NCBI GenBank assembly: GCA_963921795.1 | Contig: OY997645.1 | Span: 32,610,382-32,674,381 of the forward strand | Direction of reading: 5' to 3' | DNA from: Nannobrachium achirus | Lineage: Eukaryota; Chordata; Actinopteri; Myctophiformes; Myctophidae | Length of the DNA: 64,000 bases | Part shown: one piece after another, positions 746-51,512 of the stretch | Layout: each line of letters begins with the position of its first letter | How positions within the stretch are numbered: position 1 is the first letter of the stretch | Notes under the pieces: generated by a model | Databases searched by the model: none | What the model was told of the DNA's origin: nothing | What the model saw: only the letters and a program-made list of their open reading frames with translations | Made by a program: the position numbers and the translations under genes

Positions 746-2550
746 CTATTCAAAAAGGGAAGAAAAAAGAAACCCCATCACACCTTGTGCATTCACTTCC
801 TTCAAAACAACCCAAGACAACAGATTCCATACATTACTTCAATGTGGTATCACAGTTAATGCAGATAAACAAGAGGATAAAAGCAGCCATCATCTCCCTG
901 TGAGCGTTTGACAGGGGATTAGTAATATGCAGGCATTCTAATTTTAATTACTGCTTCTGACTACAACAGAGGCTTTCAACACCACCTCCGCAAGCTGTCT
1001 AGACAGGAGAAGGTCATTTCTAGCAGGGCCATCATTTAAACAGAGGTTACACACACTTTGTCTCCATTAATCCCTCTGCTACTGCAGTAGGTGAAATGGA
1101 TGGAAATCATACTGGATTCATGCAAATACCTTTTAAGAGTCCTGCAGTCTCTCATTCGCGACTAAAGGGCCGTTTATAGTTACGTATGCTTGATTTTGTG
1201 TACGTTTTGGGTGAGATTACGTACGGTAGATCTGTCGACATGCATAGTTCCTCTCTACGTTATTTACGTGCTGACCTGCTCCCGTTGGGGCCGTGCGCCA
1301 CATGGAGGTGGTTCTGCACAGCACACACGTGTAAACCGAAGCATTTTTAGCCAAAATATGTAGAACCACAGAATTTCTTGACCCGACGTGATGTTTGGTA
1401 ACAGTCTGGACTGGTTCTGCAGCTGCTGTCTGTCGGCAACGTTATCGCGGTAAATGCAACTCCGCAAGGGTACAGATTTAACCACCCGGACTGAGTAATA
1501 ATAACGAAACACAGTGCCCTGCACCCATCTTGCTGTTGGAGGAGAACCTCTGTCTTATAAGTAATTTTCCTCATTACTGCCACGGTTGACAAAAGTTTGG
1601 CACGGGTAGTTTCATCGGTTTTAATCCGTCGGGTTGAGTGTTGTCCGTAAGGTTACGTACAGAGACAAAAACGGACAGACGTAACGTAGCCAACGGATTA
1701 AATTACTCTCCCCCTCCGTTTCTAGTGTAGACTTGCGGTCCTTATGTATTACTATGCATGGTACTTAAGAGGAATACACTACATATCCTACTACTAAAGA
1801 TAGTAGGATGAGGTTATGGTCAATAGCTTCACCATCAGGCAGAAATCCTGTATGGTCTTGGCATGCTAAATATTCGACTGAACACGGCACAACCCTGTTC
1901 AAGTTCATTTCCCATAGGAAAACCATATCATTTTAGCCATCTTGGTGGAGAGTGGGAGTTGTGTATTGTATGTCTGCAACATGCTGTGAGCAATCTGATC
2001 TTCCTGTACCAATGCCTCCCAGATTTCCAAGCCAGGATGAGAGTTTGAGGCGTGGGGGGCTCATGCACATAAACACACAGGGCTAAGCTTGTGCTATAGC
2101 AGTGCTACGACTCATTCCCAGAGCTAGGGATGGGACGATATGAAAATTTCATATCACGATTATTGTGACCAAAGAAATCGCGATTTACTTCCTGGGGCGG
2201 AACATTTGCCAAAAAATAGCAGATCTACAAGCTCACAACGCGTCGCATTGCGACGTGTTGTGAGCTTGTAGATCGGCTATTTTTTTGGCAGAGATTTAGT
2301 AGAGAGTGAAAAAAAAGACTGTATCAAGTACGTATATTATAAGTACCTTTTATCAATTATAGAAAGTTTAAATGGTACCAGATATGCAGCTCGGCAAATA
2401 AAAGGTGAACTGATCCCAGTGCATGACGGAGGACGATATCACAATAAATTAAATCTCCACAATACGATTATTGCGAGTGTTTTTTTATCACGATAAACGA
2501 TAATATCGCTTATCGTCCCATCCCTACCCAAATCGCTGTGATCTGGCTCA

Positions 2551-2601
<51 letters not shown>

Positions 2602-11600: not shown

Positions 11601-14600
11601 CGGGACAGAGGAGACATAGGGTAGCCTGTGAATTGTCACTTTTCATTCTCAACCGAGTAATTCACAGAAGCTCTCGTGATGCTCTGCTTTCAGGTGTATA
11701 AAGTTCCTTTACACCTTGCAGGCAGTCATCCACTCACAGATACACCCTATACTGCAGCGCAACGACAGAGTTCATTCAGTTATTCGTGTTTGTCACAATT
11801 TCCCAGAAAGATAGGATTTGTATGGCTATAACAATAAGAATCAGCTCACAATTTGCAATTCAATCAACTGACAATTATTATAACAAATTATACAAATAAA
11901 TAAATACATAGCTAATTAAAACAAAGGTCCACACAATGTAGGTCCAAACAAGTGACTTGTCAGACTGAGAACTTTAATCCAGGCGATAGTCTCGTCTTCA
12001 CAGAACATCAGGGACACATGCAGGGTCACCTTCATATCTGCTGACAGTGACTTAGTGTCCCAATTACATTACATGGAGATAATTGCGTTATACATCTTGC
12101 ATGAACGGGAGTGAATTAAAAATGCAGAGCATAATTTCCCCAAACATCCTCGTAAACTTCGTTAGACGGATCCTGTCAAAACACCAATGCCGCAACAGAA
12201 TTGATAGGCGTCATTAACTACTACTAATGCTTTCCCCTCTATAGGACACATACTGACTCGTTGTGGTTCCTCTACGATATCCCTACAAGTAGCTGAGATG
12301 AACCGCTCCATAATAGAACCTCCACTACCAAACACAGGGTTCCCACACATTCTTTACCAATTAATTTCCAAAACCTTTCCAGAATATTTAACCCAATTTC
12401 CAGGACTATAAAACAATAATTCAGCTCAATAACGAGTCGCTTACTCCTATGCGCAATGCCCAAAGACAGGTAGTGTATGCCAGTGGTTCTCAACCTTTTC
12501 AGGCCGTGACCACCGAAATAATCATATTTGAACTGGGGACCCCGGCACCCTGACGAGCACTAAGAGTTGACGAATTTTGTATAACACCGTTTTATTGTGA
12601 AAGTAGCCGATCTACATGCTCACAACGCCTCGCAACCCGAGGCGTACTGGAACTTTTCAAGTACTGGAAAAATATTTTTCTAATTTCAAAATATTTCCAG
12701 GAATTTCATGACCGTGGGAACCCTGCAAACAAGCAAAAAGGGAAAGGCTGAGAATGGGGGGAAAAAAAATATGTTTGGGTGAGAAGGGTGCAGGTGTCTG
12801 CAAGGCATATGGATTTTTGGGGGTGACAGCCACTACCTCCTTGTAGCGGTGCCACAGGCATTCAGGATGCTTGAGTTGAATGAGACACAGACACACACAC
12901 ACACACACACATAGTGGGATACTGTGTGTGTTGGTTGGTGGCGGATGCAGCCGTTGGCTCAACTCCAGACCTCCTGCTCAGAATCCCAGCCCAATCAATT
13001 CCTTTTTTATGCTCTTCCCTCAAAAACAAGCCTCTGCCTGTGTAGCCTACAGGAAATAGTGACCGCAACTAATCTGTGTGCGCACCTTTTTGCAAAGCTG
13101 AAAATGAGTGGTAACAGGCAAACAGTCTTTTTTCCCCCTTTTTGCCTGGTCTAACTGCTTTGTAAATCAAAATGAGGCACACTATTTGTTTTGTTAAATA
13201 TAGAGCGAATGGAAACTCTATATAATGGGTCACACATGTAGAGCTCAAACATTTGAGTATATAGGATCTTTTTATACATGTTCCAGAAGCTGTACGAATC
13301 TAGTTCAATGAACGAAGGTGGCTCTGGACAGATGCATCTACCGTACCATACATGCACTTGGCTTCAATAAAGGATGGCATTGTTCCAATTATCACTCACC
13401 AAGTCATATTATAGTTATAGGAAGGTAACAGCCCTACTTTACTTACATTATACGTTTCCATCTTGACTCTGCTGCGGAAGATAAAGGTATTGAAATTGGC
13501 TTGCTGGAAGACTTCATCAAAGGCAGTTTCATTCTGGAAAAATAAGATAAACATTGGATGAACTCAACTTCACAACTATTTCTATTCAAATGCAAGGTTC
13601 ATTTGGGTTCAGAATACAAAAGAAACCTGTGGTACTCAATTAAAACCAGCTTAGCCCTGAAGTTACACTGGAATAAACGGCCCCTATGATTATTTTATTA
13701 AGTTGTATGGAAATACCGACCACAGGAAAAACAGCACAACCGTATTTAGACTGTTTTGTTGTTGGTGGCGGGCCATTTCCTGTGGACAGCCTTTAACACA
13801 GGCAAAGGAGACTCACCGAATCCCTGAGCTGCCCCAGGTAAGTAGCATTCTGGCCCAGAATGGCCTCCGCACTTTCTTGAAAGCATGTCACCCACTGGTT
13901 GTCCGCATAGTCTGCAATGTTGGCCTGCCAGAGAAAACGCATGCCACAAATGAGTGGCAAGTTAAGTCAAAGGCACTTATCACAGTTTAATCTTTTAGTT
14001 CACACTCTGACATGTCATTATTGGCTTGATGCAGTAGCTACTCAATGCATAAATATGACACACATGCATGTGTGTGAGTGCGTACAATATGTATATGTTA
14101 GCTTGTATCTTGTTGGCATTTGACAAGCATGCATACAAATCTAACAGAAGGCCAAGGTTGCACTTGTTATGCATAAAGCGCAAGCAAGTTCACAGCTTAC
14201 GTTACTACTTGTGAAGAATTGCAATATGCTGACTGTAGAGAGGTACAAAAACAATCGAAAAGCCTCTTATTTCAGACGTAATATGCAATAGCTTCCGACC
14301 TCTGCTGACTAAATTAGTTTTAGCATTTAATGCCGATAGGTTTTTCTTTTTTTTCTGGCTGCAGACTAGCAGAGCAAAAGGAGAATGCATATGTGCTCAT
14401 TGCTAGACATCTGCTTAACACTTATGTTGCAATGATTTTTTCCGGCCAATGTCCCGCGTTGCCATGGTTACCATAGACTTCCATGTAATTGTGCAAGTGT
14501 GTAAAAAGTGCACGCCCATGCCTAGATGATGCACCACGTGTGTAGATGCTGTTCACAGCTTTCAAACAAAAAAATCCGCTTGGAAATCCGTGCAGGCATT

Positions 14601-15246
14601 CATGATTTATCAGCCATTATGTTTTCTACAGATGTAAACAAACATGGCTGCCATGTTTGAAAGAATGGGTTGGTGTGGGGGTTAAACATGCAATTTCGCG
14701 ATCGCGATCATGCCTAATACATTTCTGGAGGTCCAAAAAAAAAATTTGAAAAAAAATTTTTTGAAATTTTTTTTTTTTTTTTTTTTTTTCAAAAACGGCC
14801 CAAACTCGGGAAACTCGGGGTTGGCACAGCACTAGTACCAATACAAACTCGGGAAACTCGGGGTTGGCACCATATGTGTTAAGATGAATACAAAATATAG
14901 CAGCAATTACCAGTAAGATCTTAACAAAAATAATGGATTCAATATTTGGATTTATCCAATTACACAATTCCAACAAGCGAGGGCAATAAGCTTCCAAATT
15001 AAAGTCTTTAAATAGGAACTGAAGAGCAAACAGGGACAGCAATGACCTATGGGGAGAGGGCCACCGAAAGAGGTGCTGGAATCCTGAGAGATAGATGAGG
15101 AAAGGAGGAGCAGTGGAGAAATGTGGTGGGAAGGGGAGACAGTGTGAAAGACAGGGTAATGAGTAGCACTACATAAGTCACCCTGAGGATGACACCCATA
15201 GCCTCAGCGGAAAGGTCTTCTGAGGACGTGGCAGGCTGAACGGAGG

Positions 15247-15310
<64 letters not shown>

Positions 15311-18300
15311 TGAAACTGTTGAAATAGAGTCAGACAGAGGCTTTAGGGCAGCCAGTGCTGAGCGACTCACAGAAAGGATGAGCCGGTACTTGTAGTTGGG
15401 GAATTCTTTGTCGCACTTCTCACAGCGGAACATGCCGTTCTGCTGGTCCACCACCTTCTTGTTGCAGTCCTGGCTGGGGCAGGCCTGGTACAGGCAGTTT
15501 TCCTTCTTCAGGTACACTATGGTGGCAGTGCAGCTGAAGTAGTCGGGCTAGAACAGAAAATACAAACAATCTAAAACAGTGGTTCTCAACCCCAGGGGGG
15601 TCCCCAAATTATTTTTGTCATTTTTACCTCTAAAATGACAAATGAAATATTGGTAAAATTGTCAAATATTAGAGGGTGAAAAATGGCCAATAACACCTCG
15701 CAACACGAGGCGTTTTGAGCATGTAGATCGGCTATTTTTCACAATAGAACCATATTATATGAAATGTAATGCCTCAACTCTTAGTGCTCGTCAGGGTGGG
15801 GGGTCCCCAGTTAAAATATGATTATTTTGGGGGTCGCGGCCTGAAAAGGTTGAGAACCAATGATCTAAAACACTAAAATCTCAGACAACGTATTGTAAAC
15901 CGCCTGTTACTGCTTGGAGTATGTACTCTATTTATTGTGGCCAACTCTTCAGCGTTTTTTTGGAAGGCCATCCATTGAGCTTTGTGCAGTTGTAAATAGA
16001 ACCAAGGGCAAGGTCACAACAAGGATGAGACAACCTTTTGATGAGGCAGAATATATTCTGCTTCACGCTGTATTCAAATAATTCAAAAGCAGTGGATGCT
16101 CAAAGGCAACGTAGCAACACCTTTGGAATAGGCAAAGTGTATAACCCCTCCATGGCATATACAAAGCCTCTTTGGAAATCACCCCTCGCTGGTATGAGGA
16201 AAACATAAAAACAGCTGACATGAATTTCAGAGGCTGAAAAACAACAGTTGAATATAAAGAGAGATGTTTTGTGAAGGAGAGGACTCACTAAGTCACAACA
16301 CTTTTCTTCCCAAGGCAGGCCTTCCTCTCAGCACCACTATCCAGGTGTCAAAGGCCCCGACACAATAGAAGGTTTCACCCCAGCACTGGCTGTAGGTACA
16401 GAGTGGAGACTACAGCCCTGCAAGCTGAGAAGCAGGCCAAAGGCTCAGCGTTGAGGGTCAGCGAACAGGGCAACAGGCCATGGAGCCAGGGCAAAGCAGC
16501 AGAATTCATCAAACAATCATCCCTGTCACCCTATGAATCCTAAAATATGTTGACACTGCTGAAGTGCTGAAGGCCAAAGGCAAATCTGTAATGAGTTTAT
16601 CCACAGAGCACAATGGCCAGATGTGATTTGCTGATATATAGTACATCGGCCTACTGTGGGATAAACAAGCAGATTTTCTTTCTTCTTTTTTAATCATGTT
16701 GTCCAGTTGTGTGTTCACCTATAAATAGTCTCACTTTAAAACCTAGCAGGAGTCAGGAATGGGACATTTGGCCAAGTAGTTAATTGAGAATTTTGTTTAA
16801 GGAAGATGATTCCTCTCTAGATTACAATATCTAGCAGGGAGCCTCAGGCAAGCCTTGACTTCTAAGATTTTAAAAGGAACTAAATAGGAAAATGTAAAAA
16901 ATAAAATAAAGGGAACATTTCCCAACAGTAGTGAAAACTCCACATGCTAATGCTGACCATTGTGTTTGCAAGCGAAGGATTTTTTTGACCCCAATTAACT
17001 TCACACCCGGGACAATTGATATTCCATGTCACTTTGGATGAATAAATGCCTTTAGGAAATGGTGAATGACAGTGGCCAAATTAAACTCATCCCAATTGCA
17101 CACATGGAGCTTGACCTACCACCAACAACCCAGACATGCACCTCAGAAGCCTGCTTATAAGAGTGCTAATTAGTCGAGTAAATACCACTTCAATTAGTGT
17201 GTAACTCAGTGTACAATAGTGCCAAGAGAAGTGTTTTTCTGTCAAAGGCTCTTTCTACACGCGGTGTCGAGTCCACAAGATACGGTAGCCGCTCACTGTC
17301 AGGGGGGGAGGAGGGGGGGCAAGCACAATGTGGAAGATTTGAGTTTGTGAGACAGAGACTTTGTGACAAGGACAATTAATTGTGGCAGACAGGGTGAGGG
17401 TCCTTCAAGAGGCCTGACCCCTCGCCACTGCGTGTCGAGCGTCTGTGCAGGCTGAGCGCAAACCGAGTTTGGCTCCTTTGTCAGCCTCAGCCCCCATCAA
17501 GCTACAGGCTGAAGTGGTGCAAGAGACACTGTGGCACTGTGGGGTCAAACTTTACCCCCTCCACCGCAGGGATCTAATTGCAGGAGAAAGCTATGTAACC
17601 AACAGGGGGAGATAATGGTTACCAGTTGAACTGAAGGTCTCCCTTCCTAACTTAGACTTACGGAACCATTGCTGTATTGACTTTGACCTCTAAGGATCAA
17701 TTGCTGTATTGACTTTGACCTCTAAGGACCTTCCAGGAAGAGTGCTCATGTGCGCCTTGCGGTGACACGCTTCCTAGTTTCTTCTTTTTTCGCACTGATT
17801 TTTGACACTGCACTATTAGGTTGTTAGTGTTGGTAGTTTCTGAGTATTTTTGCTTTGTTTAACAATGACAGTGATATACTTGTTTGCACTAACTAGCATT
17901 GACTGCTATGGTCTCTTTTGCAAGACACTTTATGTATATATACTTATATATTATTCGCCCCCTCTATTGATGCACCTTCTCCTTATTGGTACTGTACTGC
18001 TCTTGTCTTTGTTTTGTTTTTTTCCCTCTTATCTATCTTTCTTACGTCTCTGTAACTTTGTAAATAACTGTATACTGCTGTGCTACTACTGGACAACTAA
18101 ATTTCCCCCTTGGGATAATAAAGGTATCTATCTATCTATCTATCTATCTAGGAGATTGAGAGCTAGCTGGTGCAACAGAAATGGCATTGTCAGCCTACTA
18201 TTTATGGTAGGATACCCAAAGCACCAATAGTGGCATACAGAAGTGCAATGATGCAGACTATCTATGACTGGAGGACCCTGCAGCTGTGTGGCTGGAGTTG

Positions 18301-30300: not shown

Positions 30301-33300
30301 CTTATGCAGGGAGTGGCTGACTCCCCATAGGTAACAAATTCAATTACCTTCCCAAAAGTGCTACTCACACAGATAAAGTACAAATTTACCACAGAGAAAT
30401 AAACAGCCATAATCCATATTACACTCCATTAATCAATGCAAACTAGCATCCATTCCTTTAATTGGCTGCATACTATTAGATTGTGAAGTTAAATTATGAT
30501 AGGAACAAGAAAATTATAATGCATGCAACATTTAGCAAATGAACCCAAATATACTGTACATGTGCCTAACATATGTACTGTCTTAGTACATTACATACAT
30601 GGTCATTTTGTACTATATCTGTGTGAGCAACACTCTGATTGGACGGGTAATTACCTACAGTATGGCGTTCTCTCCCCAAAACATTTTGAAAACAAATTTA
30701 AAATAATAATAATCACGCTTATGAACTCGACACTGCGGTATACATTACACCAGGGGTTCCCAAAAGTTTTTTTGTCTCAGGGCACCCCATTAATATTTTT
30801 TTAAATCTGAGGCACCCCTACATTACAATTTTCACTCCCAGTCCCAGCACCTTATATTTATAGCATATCGTCGTTGTCGGGTGGAAACCTTGTCCAAAAG
30901 CGTTTGTTTTGTATTTATCATCTATAAAGTGTACTAAACTAGTGAAAACAGCAGATCTACAAGCACACAACGCCTCGCAATGGTGCTTGTAGATTGGCTG
31001 TTTTCACTAGTTTTGTGCGACAGTCTTGTACGATGAATTATGATGTTTATTTTGCGAGGAAAACGTTGAGATAATAGCCATTTTGTTTAGAACTGACTGA
31101 AAATAACTTTGTACTTCAAGTTTAAAATGAAATATTACATATTTTTTCAAGTGTCCAGATAAATTCCAAATATTATCAAATTATCTCGTGGCACCCCTGG
31201 ACTGCCGTCATGGCACCCCAGGGTGCCCCGTCACCCACTTTGAAAACCCCTGCATTACAAAAAGGCAGTATGGAGGTATTGCGGTTATTGCACCCAGCCC
31301 TACTGTGGAGAGCCCGACACTCATCAGTACATAACATGGCTTCTCAGTGTCAACAGCTATTTTACCTGATGAAGGTCTGAGGAGGACCAAAACAGTGGGC
31401 AGTGTGCATGAGTAGGGCTGTCACGATTATGACATTTTACACAACGAATAATTGTCACTCAAATAATAAATTGTGTTTCTGTCTTTGACAATTACATTTC
31501 TGTTTGGCTTGTAGGCTTTGAAGTAGCACATGGTAGATATGACACATAACCTAAACATACAAAGAAATTACTGACATATTTGACAACTTTATACTTAAAA
31601 AAGAACACTGATAGTGGAAATAGCCGATCTACAAGCTCACAACGCGTCGCGATGCGACATTATAATTATTTCCGTTCTTCCATGCTGCTGAGGACCGCCA
31701 TGTTGTACAGTATGTTGATGGTGTAACTTCACCACAATTCCCTCGCTCAGGCTAAAGGACTGAGTCTCAAATCTGGCCTCCCATCATAGTGACTTCTGAA
31801 CTATTAATTGGTGGTTGACTGTGTGCGCCTGCAGAAACCCACTGGCCAAGAAGGACCTGCATGACCTAACTCCTCTGCTCTAGATAAACAGGAACACGGC
31901 TTTAGGGATCGTTATCTCTGGCCATCCAAGTGAAAAGTGACTGGAGAGAGTGGAGAGCAGACTGCTGCTGTTAAATAGAGACGAGGGAGAAGTGAAAACA
32001 TCAGCATTGAAAGCAGGGACGTGGAAACTATGGCGATTCAGCAGTCAACACTCATTATTATTACATAATGGCATCAGGTAAACAAGCAAATCCAGAAAAT
32101 GCTTTTCCTGAGTCTTATTTCCTTTTGCATATTGAGTAAGCAGAGCAGAGAGCACTTTCTACGACTATCGAAATATGCTAAGTAACACAAAGCTATCTCA
32201 TTTAAACAACCAATCCGCTTAATCTGAAAGCTCCTTAGTTTGAGGGACATTGTTCAGCACTTTACAATCAAACTCCAGACAAGATAATAATTCCTAAGAC
32301 AGCAACAAGGAACAACAGGATACTTTCAAATAGTAGGTAGGTGCTCAAGCTAACTGTGATCACGACATTTATTTTCCACAGCCAAACACCAAATCAAGTG
32401 GCTGATATGAAAACGTTTTGCTGACTGGCCTGTCTGTCTCTAACCCGCTGCACGGAGTCACATTTCACTGCCCTCATTGTGCAGATCATTTTATTTTTAA
32501 GTGCTCAAAATAATCACAGACAACTTTTGTATTAAAAAGAGACTCTGAATCTGTGAAGATGCCAGGTGGGGCCATTGGTACTGGGAGGTAAACAAATGTC
32601 TCTCCGCCCACTTGGGTGCAATCAATCGTATCTCCAATCTGAAACGCACACATTGCCTTCTTCAGAGAAGAGGCCCCAGACCAGGTTTGCTGCTGCAGCG
32701 CCTCAGTGGGGGAGGACGATAAGAAGATGGACAAAATCAATCAGTCAATGTGCCAAGTGAGCTGAAGTGAAGGTTAAGTAGGAGCAATGACAGCCACCTC
32801 AGTCCATGTTAACATTGCATTGTCCATCAATCTTTTCTGTGCCAACCAGTGCCACTTTGTAAAACCACTTGGCAATGCTTCCTGTGCCAAGTTAACCTGT
32901 GTCACTTACTTTGCCAAGTGGTTTTACAAAGTGGCAAAGGTTGGCACAAGATAGATTGCCAAGTAGATTTGCAGTCTTCTCTTACTACCAGTTCTTGACT
33001 TCAAAAAGTATTTGACATTTTTATAAACAATATAAAAATAAGGTGGGAGAAGATAAATATGAACGTTCATTATTGGACCAGTATGTGATGAGGGCGTTGA
33101 GGGGTGTGCAATGACTAAGATAATTATGATCACAAAAACTGGCAAGAGAGCTCAGAGAAAAGATGAAAGCTTGACTCAAGGCTGATTCTGTATTCCTCTG
33201 CACAAGAAGCCAACAGAATGTCCTCAAGGAATAGAGGCATATGCCTGTTCAACTGTGATGGGGCCTGCCTGCCACAGCAGCTGGCTAACACACTCAAATA

Positions 33301-36300
33301 TAGTGCAAATTAGAGCTGAACAATTTGGGGAAAATACGTAGTGGTCGCATAGACCAAGGCTCTTCAACAGGGGGTCCGGGACCCCTAGGGGGTCCTCAGA
33401 GTTACTACAGGGGGTCCTCCAAATCTTCGTGTGATAGAAACTCCCCCTTTTTATATTAACCACTTGAACCCTAGCGTCCATATTCTGATAACTTCAGCCA
33501 AAAATAGCAGATCTACAAGCTCACAACGCCTCGCAGCGGCTATTTTCGGCAAAGTGGTTTGGTGTTGAGGGGAAAAAAGAGCAGACTAAGTACAGAGTGA
33601 AAGAATCCAAAATACACTGATGATCCTGCTGTCAAATAATGAAACTATATGGAATCTCTAAAAAGGTTTTGGGGTTCCCTGCTTCATCTGTCTCTCAACT
33701 AAGGGGTCCTTGGCCTGAAAACATTGAAGACCCCTGGCATAGACGCATTAAAAAAGGCTGAAGCACAACGGTGGATTTGAACACTCAACCTCTGTGGTGG
33801 TGGGAGGACGCAGACTTTACCACTGTGCCAGAAAAGGTGACCTTGGGAACTAATGACAGGATAACTACACAAGACAAACCTCTACCAAAGTGTCATTGCG
33901 TTTTAAGGCTGAATTGAATATTCTACTTCAGAAGTCTTCAACATTTTCAGGCCAAGGACCCCTTAGTTGAGAGAGAGAGATGAAGCAGGGACCCCCAAAA
34001 CCTTTTTATAGATTCCATATAGTTTCATCATTTGACAGCACGATCATCAGTGTATTTTGGATTCATGTCAATTTGTGTTTTCAGATATTTAACCACTTGA
34101 ACCGTCAATACTTATTAAACTTAACCTTTCACTCTGTACTTAGTCTGCTCTTTTTCCCCTCCTTTTCTTCTACGTTCTACTTGATTCATGGACCACATTT
34201 TACCAAAACAACGAATAACCAAGTCCATTATGGACCCCTCTCTCTTATGATTTAATGTAATTAATAGCAGCCTGCGCAATTTGGAAATTGCAGTTAAAGG
34301 GATTCGATTAATTGTTCAGCCCTTGAGATAATATATAATTGAACATGCGCAAAAGTGCTGCAATATCCTTATAGTAGCATACATATGATAAATTACAAAA
34401 TGGTTCACAGTAGCGAAGCTCAAATTGAGCTTGAATATAAGAAATTAACATGAGAAATTGGACGTCTATCCCAAACCACCAACACGATAAACAAAATGCT
34501 ACAGTCCCCATAATGAAAGACAAATGAGAAGTCTGGCAGGTTTACCGTCATTTCATTTGGAGTAGAAAATGGCATTGTGTAAAGATAAAGGGTGATTTGC
34601 ATTAACATGTAAAGCTTCAGTGAAGTACCCCCTACATCTTTGCAAACAGAGGTGGCCTAATCTCCTTAATGAGAACCAGAGCATGTGCCCTCCTAGCTTG
34701 TGAATCGGGAAGTTTACAATTCAAATTCTGAAATCCTTTCAATGTCTTTAGTCAGATGCAACAAAATAGCACTTTCAAAGTATCTAACTTCTGTACCCGA
34801 ACATATTTCCGACCGTCTAATGAAACAGGAAAGTAAGTAAGTAAGTAATGAAACAGGATATGCGTGAGACATACCATAGCATTGGGCGTAAACTGAATTT
34901 GAACATTTAATAGTGGCCATGTCAAAAATTATAAATAATTACAATACAAGTTTAACAAAGATTGATGGGTGGATGTGATATCATTGGATGAAATTGTTTG
35001 GTTACAAAATTACAAAAGTTTGTCATATTTTGTTTTACAGAAAACTTTGTTTTGTATTATTATTATTTTGTTTGCCTCTATTGCTAAGTAAGTATGGGAT
35101 GTGTACCTGGGATGTGATGTGAACTAAAAGTGTGTGAAAGGAGCGCCCCACACTAGCAGTGATTCCTAAACACCGTAATATGTAAATAGGGCTGGGGCGG
35201 TATGGATTTTTAGTTATTGCGGTCACTTTTTACAGACAGTATGGCGGTCATCGCAGTATAATCGCGGTTATGAACTCGACAAACGGTATGCATTACACAG
35301 CCGCATATTATTATATTATATATATTATTGCACCCAGCTCTGTATGTAAAAAGATGTTTTAGTAATATTCAGGGTTCCCACACATCTTTACCAATTAATT
35401 TCCAAAACTTTTCCAGAATATTTAACCCGATTTCCAGGACTATATACTGTAACAATAATTCAGCTCAATAACGAGTCGCTTACTCCGATGCGCAATGCTC
35501 ACAGACAGGTAGTGTATGCCAGTGGATCTCAACCTTTTCAGGCCGTGACCCTCTAAATAATATTTGAACTGGGGACCCCGGCACCCTGACGAGCACTAAG
35601 AGTTGAGGAATTTTGTATAACACCGTAATGCGAGGCGTTGTGAGCATGTAGATCTGCTATTTTCACAATTTCTGCCTCTAATATTTGACAATTTGGCCAA
35701 TGTTTAATTTGTCATTTCAGAGGTATTAACCAAAGACAATACATAGCTTGTCCAGGACCCTTGATCAATTCCAAAACTTTTCAAGTACTGGAAAAATATT
35801 TTTCTAATTTCAAAATATTTCCAGGAATTTCATGACCGTGGGAACCCTGAATATTATTCCTGGTGTGGCATCTTCCAGGTGAAGAAATCACATAATGAGG
35901 CTCTATCCTTTGCTTTTATATGAAATATCCCAGACCATTAGCGTTTTATAGAAGATGCTTCAGAACACATTGCTCCAATCTCAAAATATGCTCCAAATGC
36001 TCCAATCTTAAATAATACCCAAAAATAGACTATCTACAAGCTCTCAATGCTGATGCATAAAATGTTAGAATCGTGACAGCCCTAATGGCTTCTATAGAAT
36101 CCAAGCGACAGAAATCAGTTGCGGAGACTGAGAACTTTAATCCATGCATTGCACAGCTCTGGAAATGGACAGAACAAAAGAATGCCACTGTTGTACAGTA
36201 TTTCGTTATCCATTGATTTCAGGTTCACTTACCAGCCTCTGAGTTTATATGCTTCAGGGATGTCTGGGTTGATCATTATAGTGCTACTGAAGCTAGCACT

Positions 36301-39300
36301 GAGGGACCTGCCTCCAAAGTCAGATAGCTTGGCCCCCTTGATGGCCAAGATTGGCTGTCCAGAACCATCAAATTTCTCTGCCTGCGAAGAGATAAAACAT
36401 TTAAAACAGAATATATATAACAAACGTAGTGATAATTGATAATGGCCATTAGAATAGTGTTCATATAGGAGTGTAGTTTATATTCTAAAGTACTAATTCC
36501 AGCTTACAACAACCTTGGTAGAGCTTGGAAGAAAGCAGAGCAAGAATCATGAGACACTCAGAACCTGGGAGGTAAATGCTGCACATTTAAGAAAAAGGCC
36601 AGTTTCATCCCCTCTGCCATTAGTTAAAATATGATTTTTATGGGGGGTTGCGGCCTGAAAAGTTTGAGAACCACTGGGCTAGACTACGTTATCACCCCTG
36701 TCTCTGTCTGTCTGTGTGCAGCCAATTGGCGTGAAACACTGCACGCTCTCCCTTGAGACCAAGTAAAAACGTCTGTCCCAGATTTTTCAGTTCAGCCTGC
36801 GCCACCAAGTGGCAGGCTTTTGATAAAGTAATTTTTGGATATTACTCCTATAGATTTTGTTCAAACATTGATGTATTACTTTACCTATTGTATTGACGTA
36901 TTACCTTGCTTATTGTAAATCGCTCTAGATTAAAGACAGGGTAGCAGAATAACATCTACTTTGTCCCAATTTAATTGTTAGGTAGTTGTGAAAATATTTG
37001 CCAATGCAACCATATAGTTGTCTTGCCTGTTTTCAGAGTTGTATTCAGACGGAGATTCCAATGTCCTACTTTTTCAAAACTCCTCCTCCACGAGCTCGGG
37101 AATGGCCGAGCAAAAGCATGACGTATGAAAGCAGAGCAACATCACGTGATCCCATTGAAAGGAATGTGAAGAATGTCTTGGAAATTACAATATTTTACAC
37201 TCTTTCTAATAAAGTGAACTCTTAACTTTCTTAATTGACATGAACAACAACATGCACTTGCAATTTTTTATAAAGAATCAATAAGCCGTTTTTTCCGTAT
37301 CCATTATATAGTGTAGCATGCACGTATTTTACTAGCCTGGGGGGCGTGTCTCTTCGCGGCCCCGGTTCTCTAGCGAGGCACTGAGAAACACTAAGCCGAG
37401 ATGGGCGCTCGTTTCGGCCAAATGCTGGAGTTGCCTCGGTGTTTGACTGTGGATGTTTTTTTTTTTTGTTTGTTTTTTTCTCTCTCTCCTCCCGTTTTTT
37501 CCCCTGCCTCTCATTCATGTGTTCTCTACCTCTGGACCAAACAATGACACGAGTAAGCAATTTACCCCGAGTGAGAGGACATTATGCTCTGATAATGTCC
37601 TGTGTTAGGGGGTGATCGGACGAGGCGAAGCCGAGTCCGATAACCCCCTAACACAGGACATTATCAGAGCATAATGTCCGACCCCGAGTGGTAAATAGCT
37701 TTTCTACCACTTTTTCCCATATACATGAAAGAAAACACATAGTTGTAACTTGCAAGGATCTTAAGTTACAATCATTGTTGCCTATAAAACTTCCGCCATA
37801 ACAACAAATAGTGCCACAAACAACATCTTCTACTCACCACCAGATGGCGCCAACTCCATGCTGAGACAGATGTCTAGCTTACGCGACCGAGTATTTCCCG
37901 GTGAATCTGTGCGCAAAGGTGGGGGCCGATGGGCAAGGAGGGTTGCGAGCTTATGAGAAACAACTAAAATAAGACCTTAAAACCTGGCGAAAACAGTTGC
38001 GTGCATTAGCGCAAATGGAAAACATTCAATTAACTTCTGAAAAGCCTACACGACCTTTAAACAGCGTGCATACGGTGCATTAGATGAGGATAAATGAAAT
38101 CATTAAATGGAAATCATTAAATTAACTTCTGAAAAGGCTTCTTCTAAGCCTACACTATATAGCCTACTAAAAACGAGTGAATCTTGCCACACGTGAATAA
38201 TTGTGGTTCAGTGGTTGTAAACAATAACACAGACAATATACAATCCTTAGTCTAGTTGTGGGAAGAAAAGGATATCATCATCATCATGGCCCCAAATAAC
38301 TTTTAAATATCTTGCAATTGGAGACGAGTCTCTTACTAAATCGGCAAGAGTGCCTCTCATTTTCAATACATAAAGGCTAAGCTATAGAACCTCTCCATCA
38401 TCAGCAATAGTCAGTGGTGGTGCGTGTCCCCCAGACCCCCACACTCCCAAGCCCCCACCTTTGCGCACAGATTCACCGGGAAATACTCGGTCGCCTAGCT
38501 TACAGCTAAGCTAACGTCAGTTAAAAGCACCGTTCCGGCCGTAAATAGAGGCTGTTCGCTTCCAGAAAGGCATAGGTTCAGAGAAAAGGGGCTTTAAAGT
38601 TGGCGGATTGCATTGGATCCAAATAAATCGGCGACGATAGTACGCACGTTAGTAAACAAAGGACCGCTGCGACCGTCATTTGTTGGTGGGGGGAAAGGTG
38701 TTCCGACCATAGGGTTCCGACTCCCTCCTGAAGTCCCCGGATGCGTTCATCGCGTATTGATCTCGGAAATGTGCCTCATTTGCATGTACATCCGGGCATT
38801 TCACACATTCCGGCTATTGTGGCCTCATTTACTACTGTTTTAAGCCAATCACAATCCAGTATTTGAACACGTGACTAGAAAAAGTGGTAGAAGATTGGAT
38901 TAACTCACCCAAAAGAAGGTAGACAAATGTATTCCACTGGAATTAGTTATTAAAAGGTGCTTCACAAACGCAAGTGATGGGGCCGTGGGCTGTGCGAGCC
39001 ACGTGACGAGCTCGACTGGAAACGATACTCATACTTAAGTAAAAGTACTCTCATATCATTCTCGCACGCATGGACAGTCACGCAGTGGCCAATCTACAGT
39101 ACAAGCTCACAATTGTGAGCTTGCAGATCGGCTAGTTTCAAACAGCCAAGGTATAATAGGGCTAAAGTAGTTATTATCTGGTCCTTCACAAACGCGAGTG
39201 ACATGGCCGTCGCCCGTTCGAACTCGCAATGGTGGAAAATATATTTTACTCAAGTAAAAGTACTCTTATATCATTCTCGCATGACAGTCGCCTAGGACGT

Positions 39301-42300
39301 GACGTGCAGCTTGCAGATCGGCTAGTTTAAAACAGCCAAGGTATAAAATAGGTAGTTAATATATGTTTTATATTATAATGTATTTCTGTTTTGATTGATT
39401 GAAGATTTTATTAGAAGTTTGCATAGGAAAAGGTACTGTAGTAACTAAAGCTTTCAAATAATTTTAATGGTGTAACCAGTATTTGCCTCAGAGATAGATG
39501 TAGTGTAGTAGAAGTGAAAGTATTGGAAATTGGAAATATCCAAGTACAAATACCTCAACATTTTACTCGAGTACAGTACTTGAGTAAATATACTTATAGT
39601 TACTTTACACATCGCGGTGATGTCCGGGCGTGCAGCGAGCCGCGAACACAAACAGTCACGCAATCAAACAGTCTGCAATGTGTCTCTACTACTGAAGTAG
39701 GCTAAAGTACACACAATCAGAACATTAAACAATTATTTCACTTCACTCTCTCAGAGTCCTGCAGAAACAGGCAGAGGGGAGGGGGCGACTGTCTGTCTGT
39801 CTGTCTGCCTGTCTGTCTGTCTGTCTGTCTGCCTGTCTGTCTCACTGACTGAAACGAGCCTCCGCTGTGACGGAACAGAACGTCACGGAAGAGGCGTGGT
39901 CCCGAAGTCGAGGGTGTAGAGGGAGACACTGATTATAACTTCAAATGTGCCTATGTCTTTTGTGTTTTTATTTATTTTAAATTTATTTGGGCATCCTTAG
40001 GGGATCTTTGAGAGATATGCGTCATTATTTAGATAAAGAAAGATTCCTGCTCCCCCTCCTTTAAGAGCGTCTGCTAAATGCCTAAATTGTAAATTGTAAA
40101 CAGTAATGTCATCAAGATGGATCTGTCGGATTTTTCATATTCCATCCCGATTAGCCAAGATTGGCTTGCAAGGTTTACAACAAGAACCTGTGCTCCGAGG
40201 AGCATACCTTTGTAGTTCCTTTTTTTTTCAATAACAGGGCAGGAAATGGAGATGTGTTTGTATTCATTTAAAACTATTTACCAAAGTTTTCGCCTCATTC
40301 TAAATACAACCACCTCAGTAGACCCATTTGAAGGAACGAACTTCAAAAAGTGCTATTTATACGCATGCTGGGCATTGTCACTTTTCTATCTGGCACTGCC
40401 GTGGTTCTTTATAAACTATACATCTTGTGTACTTCAGCAAGTCTCCCTGGAGAAGGGGTATCTGCAGAGCAAACAAAGAGGGTACACAGTGCTTCTTGTC
40501 AGAAGGAATGAAATGGTGGCAAACTGAGCAGAGTCCCTTTGAGCCATAGGTAAAATCAACTGCAGCACCACAGTTCCTTCATCAGACCCATGACAGGGTA
40601 TTTACTCAGTAACTTCAACCACATCAGCTTCCATTAAACACAGCGCACAACCCTGTTAAATCCCCTCCATCTTCAAACTGCTGAATAGCAATCTCCGGGT
40701 GCTGGCTCATACGCGACACGCAAAAAAACACCTTTTCAATTAAAGAGGGAGGGGAGGAGATGTACAGCCTATGTCTGTCACTACCTGTCAGGAGTCGGAA
40801 CATGTACAATTTGGCTGCAAGCGACTTTTAAATGTGTGACTAGATTTGGTCTTCACAGCAGCGGTGATGTTGCATTTTTTTTAAATGCCTGGTCTGGCAT
40901 TTGGCCTAGTTCTACTGACTGACATATTGGGGTGAAGTCAGCTCTAATTAAAGTCATGTCTGAGGTTAGTTATGCAACTTATGCTTATTCAACAGACTAA
41001 GCAGACTTGTTTCAACCTGGAGTGCCTAGTTTAGACAGGTATTTACTTGACCGCTTTACCTTACTTTGTTGGTTTACTAGGGTTTATGCCGCTTACGGCG
41101 TTCAAGCACTTTGTAAGTCACTGTGGATGAGACATGAGAGCGTCTGCTAAATGCCTAAATTGTATTGTGGTGTATGGAAACCTGGAGTCATTCTCTATAC
41201 CCCCCTTTGTCTGCATCTCTCCCCCAGTTGGTCCTCACCTCGTCTCCCCACAGCGTTACAGATACCATCTTCCCAGACATGTCTATCAGATTCACGGTCC
41301 TCTTGGAAACCTCGCGGCCAGTCTTGGTGGTTAGACGGGTCATCTCATCCACGCTCTTGCACACCCCAATAACATCTGTGCAGGAAGACAAAGCATTGTT
41401 TACAACTCTCAGCACTAAGAAACTGATTGTGTCTCCTTTGCCAGGCAGATTCATGGTCACACTTGCAAAAACCTTATCATGACAAACAACGGGCTGCTTG
41501 TCCTTGAAAAGCCCTTGACCAACTCTGGACTACATTCCCAGACAAACACACATTCACACATATACATATCATAAATATTAAATGCGTGTCTTGACGGCCA
41601 CAGGTCACTTAGGGTCCCACCGTCTTACGGCTCAAATCGGCTATGGGGAAATCAGTTGACTCATTTTTCAGTTCAACTCAGTATGAGGTCAGCAGCTTTA
41701 AACACATACATTCCCTATGCTGGTGTGTTGCCTCTATACTCTATAAGTGGACAAAATCAAATGCAGCGCATCAAGCACAACCTCAGTATTGTTGAAACTG
41801 TTCGCTTAAATGATGAGGAGCCATTTATATGAGCAGTGAGTACTAATGATAGTCCATGGGCCAGACGGGTTGTCGGTATCAAAAAGGTGGCAAAGGTTAC
41901 CATGCATTTTTGAAAAGCTCTATATCTGTAGATTATATTTTGGTATGATAACCCTTTCTTAGACACAGCTAAATTGGTGTTATCAGCCGCTGGAGTTGGT
42001 GTCCCATTAACTTTACATTACAGGGAAAAAAAGCAAAAAATAGTAGCATAAGTAGCTTTTAGTAGCATAAGAGGGGTCAAACTAGGGGTTTGTCATGATG
42101 CCGAATCCATTGCAAGCATTTGTTTTGCACAAAAAACATTCCTTGGGCTATAAATGGCCTCAGAAAACGATGCATGTATGGGTGTGCATTCATGTTAGTC
42201 AGAGGCCTTAGGGTTTTATTTCTCGTGCTAATCAGTCTAAAAGCGCCACATTTTGCACAGATGTAGCCCAGGGCATGCTCTAATGATTTAGCTAGGGCGC

Positions 42301-45300
42301 CCGAGTCGGTGACCTTCGGGGTCGCCACAGCTCCAGAAAAATGGTTTAGTGATGAAAAGTGATGAGTCATCACTTTTCAGAGTTTGTGGATGTTTTCTGG
42401 AGCCCGAAGGTCAAGAATTTAGTTCCCAAGAAAGGTCATGTCACTATTGGTATGGTATTTGAAAAATCAATATCAAGAAATATTTAAGTCTAATTATCCT
42501 TTTGAAGTCATAACACCATAGCGACGCCTGAATGATGGACTTGGGAGTGAAATCACTCAAACAGTACTACAAGCGGCAGTCTCCGTTATCATAATTACAT
42601 GTGGGCTCCTTATTATTACTTATTCATATTACCTGTGACAGCACTTTCTCCTCTGCTAAGTTAACCGGGTCGGCCATGGGGCCAAAGTCAATCTATGCTA
42701 CAGGCCATTACTGTCATCATCAGTATTATTAATACTTCTTCTATCTTCTTATAATTGCCTTAACCTCCCATGCACATCCCTCTCCACACTCAACTACATG
42801 CATCGTCCTACCCTATCATAGGTTATTATTATCATCATCATCAGTCTGGTATTAGTAATGCTTATCAATGCTGCTTCCATGGCTACTGGTCTAACTTATG
42901 AGTTGCTTCTCCTCACCCAGGACGGAATCCGTTTCTCTGGCCTCCAGGTCGCCAATGGAGACGAAGTCACACTGCACCATGGGAACCTCACTGCTCTCAC
43001 TGTCGTCACAGGGGATGATGGTCGATTCCCCATTGAGCGTCATCTCGTAGTCGTTCTTCAGGGTGCAGTACTGCTTGTTGGCAATCTTCAGGGAGCCCTT
43101 GGAAATGTAGTACACCTAGGATGTACAGACAGATGTGTTAAAACAGATCTGAGGAGCATTTCACCTGACTGAATGGTGCTAACAAGATGTGACTTTATGC
43201 AGTTGGGGGGACTCGACAAAGACTGATCAACATAAGCTGCTTATTGTGTTGGTACATTGCAGCAGAATGACTCACTCAAAGTCCCTTTGGTTGCAATTCA
43301 AAAACGTATTGGCAGTTGTTTGTACAACGGTGAGAGCCAAATCCATCTTAGACAGCAAAGCGATTGACAGTGACAGTGTGACTGTGTAACATAATTGGTG
43401 AGAGAGGGGCATCGCTCACCTTTCCCGTCTCTAGAAGAGTGTAGAACTTGTCCACCTCTTGTTGGAAACCTGTCACTCTTATTTCTCCCTGAAACAAAAC
43501 ACAGCAATTCTTCAGCCATAGTGTGTGTGTATAGCAGTGATGTCATTACATGCGCATCCCGCATCAAAAACTCATTCAAGTCGCCCAGGGACTCATTCAT
43601 GTCATGGTCCTGGGGTCCCGGGGATGCGCCTCCATTGGAGTCCATGTTAAAATAATTTACCGGGTCGCAGTAAAAGAAAAACATTTTTAAATTCCACAGA
43701 CACCACCATTGTTCATGGGTGAAAGCATCCTACTTTACCCTACGTTAACACAAATAAAATCCACGTAGAAAGTCTTAACTCATACAGTGCCGCCGGCCAC
43801 AAGGGGCGCTAGAGTGCCAGAAATTTCTCCATAGACCTTCGCTCTAGCTTTCGTCGACACTGTCCCAAGTGCCTTGGGATTTCACTCCAGCCAATGCTAT
43901 GGGTGACGATAGGAGGAAGCTAGCTGACACGTAGCCAAAATGCTAACCCATTTAGAAGCCCGATCTAAAGCTATTTCAGTCGCAAAAAACTTTTTCTTTG
44001 GGTCTGGGAACACAATCCGGAGAAAATCCTGTCTAAAGATGTGATTTATCATTGGAGTGGGCGGCGCGATGCGGCCGTTAGCGCGACTACGGCCCGTGGA
44101 TGGCCGAGTCTAAGTCCCGGCCATGGATGGAAATTTAGACCGGGGCTTCGTTGAGGCCTCCGATTAAATAATTCATTTTATTAAATATCCCGAACTAGTT
44201 CGGGATAGGCACCCTGGCATACGTCGCGCCGCCGACAGTATATATCAAGTTTTTTTTGGGGGGCTTTATTTTAAACCATTTTCAATGGAATAAATCGTCG
44301 GACCATCTAGCGTCTCTCGTTGGCTAGCGCTGGACGAGCAAGGACCACCCACGTTGCTCCAAGCAGCTCGGGGTAAGTAAAATAGCAAATAAAATATTGT
44401 ATTGGATTGAAATAAAGCCGAACTTGTTCGGGATAGGCACTGCAAGGGTTAAACAGGCGATAGAAACGTCAATGTTTTGATTCCACCGCTATTTTGCGCG
44501 CCCAAATTAATTAGGGGCACATGTTTTAGTAGTTTTAGTAGTTCTAAGTTCAAACATTAGCCAAATTGTAAAATAAATATAAGAAATAGGCAAACATTTT
44601 GAAAATAGCCGATCTACAAGCTCAAAGCACTCGAAAACATTGTATTGAGGACTTTTCTGGGACCCATTTGAATGACCACCTGTGGGTCCCGGGACCCATT
44701 ACATTGAAAACCAAGTAACATCACTGGTATAGTATATGTGTGTATGTATGCATGTATGCATGTATGTATGTATGTATGTATGTATGTATATATATATAGA
44801 GAGATATATACAGATAGATACAATGACCAAATAAAAGTTGTCGGAATAACCCTGTTGATACTCACACTCTCATCCACAATCTCCATGGAGAAGAGCTTGC
44901 CATCACCCTTAGAGTTGCTCCATGTGCGGATGCCGCTTTTGTTAGTGACACGGGCTCGGATGGTCCATCTAACACACAGGGTTGAAGGCGATTCATGTCA
45001 GGGTGATTCAATTTGAAATGAGTAGTGGTATTCTAATTGGATACTGTGTCAAGAGATATCTATCTATATAATTTCTGATCTAAGAATAGTGTGATGATCA
45101 AGCAGTCTCTTTATATTCTCATTAATTACAAAACAGATAAATGCCCATGCCTGTCAAACACAACTATCTCTTCTCTTGTCAATCAAAATAATGCATACTG
45201 AAGTGGACTCCTCTAATCTTACTAAGAATCATAACAGTTATGCCTCCCTCCATGACTGAGATAAGATGTGTCAATCTCTTTCCCCACAATGTCTGGCTGC

Positions 45301-48300
45301 AAACCATGTATACTGTACAGTATGTTATTTGCCAATGGAAAATTAAGCTTTTATTCAGAATTATACTGTGGGCTATAACAGCAAGATTCCCTATTCAGAT
45401 CCAACTCTAACTCTTGCATGTCATGGGGTAAAATAAATGTATTTACTGCTCTGTAGTTTCATGTTAGGACATTTGTATTTTATGGCAAACATTGTGATTC
45501 GGGAATTGTGAACCACGATTCTCTAGAGGACATCAAATACTCACTTAGACTGGTACGGGTTGAGGCTGGCAATGGGCACGACTTTGGAGCTACCCCCAGG
45601 AGTGCTGGGCACAGCAGATTGTGGCTTCTTCCCAAAGGGAAGGTCCCTATTAGGAACTCTGTTCACTATTCGGAGGAATGAGGAGAAACATGATGAGTAG
45701 TGAAGTAGACTAGTAAACTCAGGTCACAGCAGACATACAGTACATTATTCATCAGGGCCGAATTGCAAAAATCTACTTTCTTTAGATTACAACTCCTTGA
45801 TCACTATATCTCTGTTCATGAAGGACAGTTTGTAGGTTTAAAGCCTTCAAACACTTTGTAACGTAATAGTAATAGAACATATTGCAGTAGATCTGGAAAG
45901 CTTGCATTAGGAGGGACTAGAGGGAGGTAACAAAAGTCCTGTTGAAGCTAGGTGTTACATGATGGCATTTCAGAGGTATTATTCCCATTTCATAGAATCA
46001 AAGCAAGAGCCTTATATGCTGTAACAAACTAAAGTTGCACTTCCCCCTGGAGAACGGAGCTGACAGACTTGGGAGATTTTCTCTTTGGACAAGCGCTGCA
46101 CATTTGATTTGTGTGCGTCTCACATGGCGGATTAAAGTTCAAAGTGTCCGGTTAAGTCCTTCTACTTTGCCGACCACTGCATTTCTGGTAATTAAACCCA
46201 GAGATCAAGCGGCACACATAGAGAAATAACTGTGCTGATGAAGAGGATGCTCGGCACAATTTCCAATTCCCGGACGGCAGATTAGGGGGATGAATACCTG
46301 TTATGACACACAGAGGACTGCACAAGGCTGCATTTCATCTCTGCTGGCCTTCTCAAAGTTCTATGACATGAACAACTATAAACTGTATTTAAGTGAAAAG
46401 GACCTTTTCTTACTTTGACTATGGCTGGCCAGATTGCTGACATAGAAACATAGGTTCTTCAAAAAAATCGTAGGATTCAAAAGACACTTATAGAACCGGG
46501 TCAAAATTCTAATTTTCACGATTTTTCAAAAATAGCAGATCTACAAGCTCGCAGCGCGGCAGTGTCGCGCTGTGAGCTTGTATATCTGCTATTTTTCAAT
46601 AGTTAAAGCACAAAATAATGATACACAATAATGTGTACCCGTTCTGAATGGGTTAACATAAACTGCCAATGTTCTAAAAAAAATGTTAATGTTAATATGG
46701 GTTTGTTTGGAATTATTGTATTAATCAGAACAGTCATCACCCATTGAGCTGGTGTTTGTGGACTGTGCCGAGTGCTCCTGCCTTCTGACATGATTGAAAG
46801 CCATGTTGTAAACTTAGCCAATTCAAATAAATTGCATGGTTCTAGAATAGTTTTCTTCCATATTAGGTAAAAGATGGAAATGTATCTGGACAATACATAA
46901 ATCCATAAAACACAGTAAGCAGGCATAGATGGCTAATAACTCACATACCAGATTGTCATAGTGAGTCATTTATTATGTCAGTTGTTAATGAGTAGAGACT
47001 CAGCATGGTGATGATAAATTAAAGAAATTGACAGAAGGACCTAAAATGGCACATTTTCTCAATAGCATTCTGTCGACCATTCTGTTCACCCAAAATGTCT
47101 ACTACACACAAATGCTGCCATCTGGTGCCAATTTAAGAAACATCCAAATAATTCCTAATAGCATAAGCCCAAGTCAAGAGGCTAAGGCTCGGGTGGCGCA
47201 ATGGTAAAAGGAGGAGATGACTACATGTGTGTGAAAATAGTGGTTAGTATCATTATGTCTCAAAGAAACTATCATATATTGTATATTATTTTCATATTGC
47301 ACAATGGCAATGCAGTCCAGTTAGAAGAGATCCAAGCAGTGTTTACCTTCATTTCCATTTTGGGGCTGCAGGGGGCGGTGTGGTGGAGGGTTTGCAGCTG
47401 GCTGTGGAGCTGGCTTACTTTGACCTAAGGAAGACCAAAAGTGAGAGGAGCACTCAACGTAACATATGCAAGTTGGCAACAAAAATGTGTTTGTGTTGAA
47501 GCCTTACCCTCCACGTAAGTAATGGGTTCCCCGATCTTTCCACCAACTTCATCAGCAGACTTTATTATGTCCATTTCCAGAATAATAATCACCCGTCTGA
47601 CAAATGATAAACAAACAGCAGGAACACCTTTATTTACGGGCTCCGAAAAAACACAGCAGTGAGCAAAGACCTTAATTCATCATACTGTGTCATAATGTCA
47701 GCTATTAAATGTATCATACCCTGAAAAAGGCAGCTGTACTGCCGAAACGTTGGTTTAATAATTATTCTCCAACAATGTCCAACAATAAACTTTGGCACTT
47801 TGGCTACGGTGTGTGCGGCCACTTTTCTGTCTTTTTAAGACATCTTCTGAGCTATTAAATGTAGATCATTAACAAGAAAGACTAATTCATCATACCGTCC
47901 ATCCTTCAATACATTGGTCACGCTCCTCTTGAGGCAGCAGACACAGTTTTGGACCAGTCTGTTGTCCTCTGCCATGTGGTTGAGCTGGGTTGAGAGCATG
48001 AAAGCTACAAGAGGGTAGAAATACAAAAGAGCTGATTAATACCAGGCAAGGCCAACTACTGAGAACTTTGCCCTTCACTTCACAAGAGATTGAGCAGGGC
48101 ATTAATGTATGAATATGATTGAAGGAGGGCCTCTAATGGGCAAAACATTCCTTTCTAAATCAAGGAATTAAGTTTTATTATTCTATACTTACAGGACATG
48201 GTGTGTAGTCCATCACTCATCATCAGTCTAAATCGGGCAGCACCATTCCCACTCTCAATCTTACGGATGTTCTGAGAGAAACATGGCAAAAGTTCATGAT

Positions 48301-51228: not shown

Positions 51229-51512
51229 TAGTGGTTCTCAAACATTTCAGACTGTGCCCCCCACAAATAATCATATCTGAAGGGACCCCCCACCCTGACA
51301 AGCACTTGGAATTATAGGAGTTGAGGCAATGCTTTTAGTTTGACTCAGTTCCACAGATAAATGGCTGATCTACAAACACAACACACACTATTATACACTT
51401 ATACTTTATGTAGGTTTGTTTACTGTTGAGTGAGAAAACAATGTGAAATCATCTTCAGGACCCCCCAAAATCATCTAGGGGTCCCCAGATGAACCCCAGC
51501 AGAGAACCACTG
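51229..51512 (+). mobile_element. hAT MITE, diverged member of the TGGTTCTCA family
   Basis: Starts TAGTGGTTCTCAAACATTTC and ends CAGCAGAGAACCACTG, with CCCCACCCTGACAAGCACTT inside as in other members. No clean target duplication. Intergenic, between rpa1 and serpinf2. Confidence 0.7.

Follow-up and report, generated by a model that had tools for sequence, protein, structure and literature searches.

A discrete palindromic module carried by several families of putative hAT-like elements in the genome of the fish Nannobrachium achirus

The Tol2 element of medaka is a fish hAT transposon that carries an internal palindrome, Angel (PMC8151067). GC clusters in yeast mitochondrial DNA are short, many-copy palindromes that merge and shuffle and are flanked by short direct repeats (PMC4478555), and the organelle DNA of Volvox contains selfish hairpins of about 50 nucleotides (nt), often inserted in other palindromes and with a small nuclear share (PMC2670323). 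The interiors of Pack-TIR elements are filled from other templates by template switching, often with microhomology (PMC8277862). Here we analyse a 64,000-nt stretch of the genome of the myctophid fish Nannobrachium achirus (contig OY997645.1, hereafter the window), in which an original prediction, made from the letters alone, had described a hairpin module spread through unrelated repeat families. We report that this module is a palindrome of about 70 base pairs (bp) with a sharp, shared edge, present in hundreds of thousands of copies.

In lying inside fish hAT-like elements the module resembles the Angel palindrome of Tol2, with which it was compared by description. Angel is a longer element in its own right. 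The recognised hosts are like non-autonomous hAT elements of the miniature inverted-repeat (MITE) kind, being short, with terminal inverted repeats and 8-bp target-site duplications (TSDs); they differ from ordinary hAT MITEs in that the same internal palindrome occurs in several families whose interiors are otherwise mostly unalignable. Whereas the yeast GC clusters are described as mitochondrial and flanked by short direct repeats, the module lies in contigs of chromosome size and has no direct repeats above the null. It rides in DNA transposons, which the source passages do not describe for the Volvox hairpins, and, unlike the fillers of Pack-TIR elements, characterized in those passages as duplicated from other sequence, it is one filler with one edge that recurs in several families.

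The unit consists of an arm, AAAATAGCMGATCTACAWGCTCACAACGCSTCGCA, closely followed by its reverse complement. Its core, GATCTACAAGCTCACAACGC, is matched 13 times in the window when up to three mismatches are allowed and never in any of 100 dinucleotide shuffles, which agrees with the 13 or more occurrences first claimed. A profile search detected 17 arms at an expectation value (E) below 1e-4, covering all 14 places of the original prediction; the profile was built from 16 arms at those places (39308-39328 left out), and these values therefore hold by construction. Outside the 14 places the best match in the window reached E 0.028, and a candidate arm at 6988-7010 was set aside at this weak value; its relative at 14539-14789 lacks the match. 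Three nearly whole, two-armed palindromes (2211-2285, 30933-31016 and 46525-46599) and, at the remaining places, one arm, an arm with a remnant or an arm with a damaged second arm bear out the description of full copies as palindromes and of others as one-armed (Table 1). A palindrome scan (score at least 18, loop below 18) passed four non-AT palindromes, three of which are the module. The nearly whole palindromes fold far better than shuffles (z-scores −14.4, −11.1 and −11.1), and the folds of four damaged copies are poorer (−5.8, −1.8, −0.1 and −1.9). Scans of the window gave no Rfam match at the gathering score, and so no structured RNA match for the module, and no tRNA.

The module is a discrete unit with constant ends, and its sharp edge is the strongest result of this analysis. 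With bases numbered outward of GATC, identity across hosts is high at positions 2 to 9 and at background beyond about 11. A comparison of 10 hosts by one arm each, in 45 pairs, gives an identity of 0.80 at nt 9 and of 0.47, 0.40 and 0.27 at nt 10-12. With one arm per flank cluster (51 clusters from 122 arms, an approximate number, as the clusters are single-linkage and partly merge hosts), it falls from 0.75 at base 9 to 0.33 at base 10. Flank similarity between hosts reached p<0.02 in 1 of 45 pairs. The earlier idea of a discrete module common to different families is thus upheld, in that the rest of the sequence is mostly unalignable and the same edge base appears in the sampled contexts.

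The assembly containing the window comprises 1,658,514,493 bases in 564 contigs. The genome-wide core search suggested by the original prediction, again allowing three mismatches, returned 317,854 and 316,731 matches, 634,585 together, versus 6 and 15, or 21, for a control pattern read backwards; this corresponds to about 1 per 2.6 kilobases (kb) and, at about 37 nt per arm, to about 1.4% of the genome by our own arithmetic. Among 20 stretches of 10 kb chosen by position (loci labelled L below; 21,517 bases read N), 80 arms scored at least 18 bits and 16 of the 20 stretches contained them. Arms stand in tandem at L005 1457-1600 (about 43-nt spacing, young-satellite-like) and at L025 6845-6932. 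Such arrays would be expected if arm repeats had spread like a satellite and formed palindromes afterwards, an origin that we regard as extremely improbable, given that in the stretches chosen by position the majority of arms are scattered or form palindromic pairs.

The recognised hosts are, on sequence grounds, putative hAT-like non-autonomous elements of several terminal-repeat types; we take their terminal inverted repeats to be of the hAT type. Four module-bearing elements with terminal repeats and an 8-bp TSD were found in the window, scoring 10.5-13 in a search run without a random control, in which the best chance-like scores at other places reached 9.5. These elements are 15577-15862 (family A, ends CAGTGGTTCTCAAC, TSD 8/8), 30751-31252 (x, CAGGGGTTCCCAAA, 7/8), 33355-33736 (z, CAAGGCTCTTCAAC/CAGGGGTCTTCAAT, 8/8) and 20612-20906 (TAGGGATGGGACG, 7/8). 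In addition, the element at 2125-2526, with TAGGGATGGGACG ends, has a terminal repeat of 12/12; an 8-bp duplication was looked for there and none was found. A wider test, on 35 palindromes of the sampled loci and 3 of the window (38 together), covered hAT-like ends only, so that other kinds of host would be missed. Twelve of the 38 fall in 10 elements with terminal repeats and a TSD. The highest score among 60 random positions was 11.0; seven of the elements exceed it, and w (11.0), x (10.5) and an element with CAGTGGTTTTCAAA ends (10.5) fail to do so. The TSD is 8/8 in A and z and in the elements at L014, L016, L018, L025:2961 and L027, and 7/8 in others. Further end types found in this test are CAGGGGCGTCACA, CAGGCACGTGCACA, CAGTGGCGTCAG (family w) and CAGTGGTTTTCAAA. 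At other loci, CAGGGGCGTCACA ends enclose copies of the m type. The elements at L014 6724-7215 and L020 4719-5256 (CAGGGGCGTCACA ends) each hold a pair of palindromic modules, placed towards opposite ends.

All recognised hosts are hAT-like, with 8-bp or near-8-bp duplications, the kind to which the wider search was confined. This would suit an ancient cis-acting hAT sequence, kept by selection for propagation while the other interior turned over, in which case the edge would be that of a functional site. By eye, families also resemble one another more in the module than in their terminal repeats, and the module tip lies near mid-element in A, x and z (0.54, 0.45 and 0.47; our own arithmetic). 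We nevertheless consider this origin decidedly unlikely, because the m type carries the module twice, towards both ends, tip positions range from 0.17 to 0.76, and one family w copy is without the module.

The host ends had been called quite different and unrelated. They do differ, but not all are unrelated: those of A, x and z (CAGTGGTTCTCAAC, CAGGGGTTCCCAAA and CAGGGGTCTTCAA) look alike by eye, and, compared with shuffles, similarity outside the masked module is weak for A-x (z-score 3.5), x-z (4.2), the hosts f2 and k (2.7) and A-z (2.2), and also for x-k. Pairs with host t were ignored in this comparison, as t included a neighbouring family A copy; the module copy at 44597 has a flank in common with family A. 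Descent of all hosts, as internal-deletion derivatives, from one ancestral module-bearing transposon, which the original prediction had itself raised as the contrary case, would draw on the likeness of A-x, x-z and f2-k. We find it very improbable: most of the 45 masked window host pairs lie within shuffles, the ends include CAG-type and TAGGG-type repeats, and about seven two-ended terminal-repeat types carry the module, some of them scoring no better than random controls.

Searches with exact flanks counted 1,575 family z copies with 60-90 nt between the flanks versus 166 with 0-30 nt, and 3,038 family A copies with 62-92 nt versus 431 with 0-30 nt; in the sample, too, flank searches usually found z and A copies with the module or a remnant. 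The module was probably already present in both families when they multiplied. Of the 166 short z copies, 100 were listed; 37 of these correspond exactly to a typical filled copy with one stretch deleted, and 36 of the 37 joins have microhomology of at least 1 base (mean 2.78 nt, whereas possible deletion products of this size average 0.31). At most 3 nt remain between the flank words in 8 of these 100 copies, and 7 of the 8 can be explained by deletion at a microhomology of 4 or 2 nt. The 100 listed short A copies (of 431) look similar to the z deletions by eye. Because of these microhomology joins, the empty-looking z and A copies are best read as deletions instead of empty sites. Some module-free flank matches in the sample were considered as empty sites and not counted, being remnants or other repeats beside the module (SINE-like, that is, resembling short interspersed elements, or microsatellite). 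The proposed check for empty sites in sister copies has thus yielded deletion-like short copies in z and A, as listed, and one module-free sister, in family w.

No target duplication above the null was found at the module edges of 23 distinct palindromes. Ten had no direct repeat, five had two bases, seven three and one four; the null from unmatched flanks was 44% none, 38% two, 13% three and 3% four, so that three-base repeats are somewhat commoner than expected (30% versus 13%). These results bear on whether the palindrome is itself mobile, inserting into hAT elements or elsewhere, perhaps at short inverted repeats, with no target duplication and by an unspecified enzyme. Such mobility would explain the edge base that about 50 flank clusters have in common, the palindromic form of some flanks (for example ATTGTG...CACAAT and AAACTAGTG...CACTAGTTT), the edge direct repeats of 5 and 6 nt at two window loci, and one listed A copy, GTTCTATTGTCACAATTTC, that is one base off the predicted empty palindrome. 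It would also explain the palindromes outside recognised elements, 26 of the 38 in the wider test, several of which are of z, A or m types with hosts elsewhere. We judge it unlikely, since the edge repeats are near the null, none of the 100 short A copies listed (out of 431) reads exactly as the empty palindrome ATTGTGCACAAT, and the clean z junctions have, in seven of eight cases, the microhomology expected of deletions. Independent insertion as a mobile palindrome, as first proposed, is therefore unsupported so far.

The pattern of the flanks supports a tendency of the arms to mirror their host. Paired flanks of one palindrome are 0.47 identical over 10 nt, versus 0.32 across palindromes (0 of 5000 permutations), and a run-length measure of the mirror was low in the window (4/720; six entries, family A twice). 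In yeast, template switching homogenises arms and inverts spacers (PMC8604942). Loops in both orientations, about evenly, would be predicted because hairpin template switching inverts spacers; among the first 52, in order, of 100 listed filled A copies, 39 loops were readable, with GTT in 16 and the complement AAC in 13.

A candidate for transfer between families comes from two family w copies, L025:2961-3532 and L009:2841-3364, which are alike at 344 of 359 aligned positions on the right side. The w element has an exact 8-bp duplication, and the sister copy is aligned nearly end to end. The copy at L025 contains, in order, 35 nt like the A left flank (31/35 to one A copy), a full module carrying CATGC, the variant that family A usually has, and CACAAT; the sister at L009 is without the module at that site. 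Copying of a patch from A into the w element would be the simplest account of this arrangement. A z copy at L020:4192 (4192-4262) has CATGC in both arms, and is possibly an exchange of the module alone between families. Near the module site of its sister, the L009 copy has, at 2860-2950, a different long palindrome, formed by the host's own sequence folded back.

The explanation that we favour, at about even confidence, is that a palindrome of about 70 bp forms a discrete cassette inside several non-autonomous hAT-like families, is passed between them by copying and is kept palindromic by template switching. The cassette would multiply mainly as a passenger during transposition of its host, because the flank counts of families z and A point to amplification together with the host. 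Occasionally it may move between host families by copying during repair or replication, sometimes with donor flank; transfer is proposed on account of one or two candidate events and of the edge, which is sharp and common to the families. Once in a host, hairpin template switching would keep or remake the palindrome by copying one arm onto the other; it would also flip the loop, and the mirror could extend into the host. Copies would decay by deletions that take the centre or one arm, with loss at microhomology. The patterns described above support the two processes of deletion and template switching.

Several observations weigh against the passenger cassette. Five of the 14 window places have no recognised host, as is the case for the 26 palindromes mentioned above in the test of hAT-like ends, and 63 of the 100 short z copies listed cannot be derived from the reference string by one exact deletion. 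The run-length mirror measure is weak in the larger sample (357/5000), and, with several from the same kind of host among them, the 23 palindromes are not fully independent. The sharp edge is unlike ragged capture alone, and many transfers would need to start at the palindrome's own base. Furthermore, there is one good transfer candidate only: the CATGC variant is not unique to A, and L009, aligned to the A-like stretch, agrees with it at 27 of 31 positions, with gaps at 10, which makes loss of the module from L009 possible. Exchange between elements, the other route offered by the original prediction, thus has the w copy at L025 in its favour, and loss in the sister may explain that copy instead. 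A bolder version, which we hold to be doubtful though possible, is a hyper-parasitic hairpin, that is, a 70-bp palindrome with fixed ends that would spread between DNA-transposon families by hairpin-based copying or insertion, with no target duplication, and would have reached several hundred thousand copies in a single vertebrate genome by means of its hosts.

The module bears on a long-standing question, namely where non-autonomous DNA transposons obtain their interiors. One cassette with fixed edges, several families and hundreds of thousands of copies provide enough events to read the exchange of interiors, and the same copies could show by what routes palindromes are maintained or lost and whether an element multiplies better for carrying a hairpin. 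We found no description of one palindrome common to several fish hAT families among the open-licence papers listed by term searches, and six module stretches of 15-17 nt occurred in none of the open-licence paper texts. There were no exact matches to three module patterns and two family A patterns in IMG/VR viral contigs, or to two module patterns in GTDB genomes.

Table 1 Places in the window that hold the module or part of it
Feature	Position	Strand	Context
Full palindrome, both arms	2205..2291	.	Between TAGGGATGGGACG ends at 2125 and 2526; fold z-score −14.4
Left arm and about 7 nt of right arm	12595..12645	+	Family A inside CAGGGTTCCCACA composite 12335-12725
Palindrome, one arm partly missing	15680..15744	-	hAT-like element A 15577-15862, TSD ATCTAAAA 8/8, ends CAGTGGTTCTCAAC
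Single arm	20845..20888	+	Second TAGGGATGGGACG-family copy, 20612-20906, TSD 7/8
Single diverged arm	26855..26893	+	No host recognised
Palindrome, arms running on into ACTAAACTAGTG	30933..31016	.	Host 30751-31252, ends CAGGGGTTCCCAAA, TSD 7/8
Left arm and truncated right arm	31611..31674	+	No host recognised
Left arm and right-arm stub	33497..33551	+	hAT-like element z 33355-33736, TSD GCATAGAC 8/8
Right arm only	35629..35669	-	Family A, second composite copy 35370-35849; other arm kept at 12595
Single diverged arm	36016..36052	+	About 17 nt from TAGGGCTGTCACGATT end at 36069-36084; opposite end not found
Palindrome without CG-rich centre	39086..39143	.	Left arm weak, E 0.063; in tandem duplication with 39294-39332
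Single arm	39294..39332	-	Second unit of tandem duplication
Single arm	44597..44636	+	Outer flank similar to family A right flank
Full palindrome, m-type	46523..46601	.	Both arms have the CAGCGC variant; host at this place not recognised
Badly decayed possible arm	51356..51386	+	Old family A copy starting near 51230; weak, E 0.71

In each of the composite copies at 12335-12725 and 35370-35849, a CAGGGTTCCCACA repeat encloses the 5′ half of family A, and the two copies keep opposite module arms. An inversion of the module between them was considered and rejected, as they differ, it seems, in which arm of one palindrome was lost. The tandem duplication at 38941-39365 has one module copy per unit, the second of which is one-armed. 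The longest tight palindrome of the window, at 37555-37701 with arms of about 72 nt, is unmatched by the module arm profile.

Elsewhere in the window, a long-terminal-repeat retrotransposon, Gypsy-like by eye, occupies 3266-11263; its terminal repeats are 99.9% identical, which therefore suggests a recent insertion. Inside it, at 6847-7100, lies a second repeat, related to 14539-14789. A long open frame at 23183-26074 has, by eye only, the look of an endonuclease and reverse transcriptase of a long interspersed nuclear element, and exons near 53-62 kb are presumably those of SERPINF2-like and WDR81-like genes.

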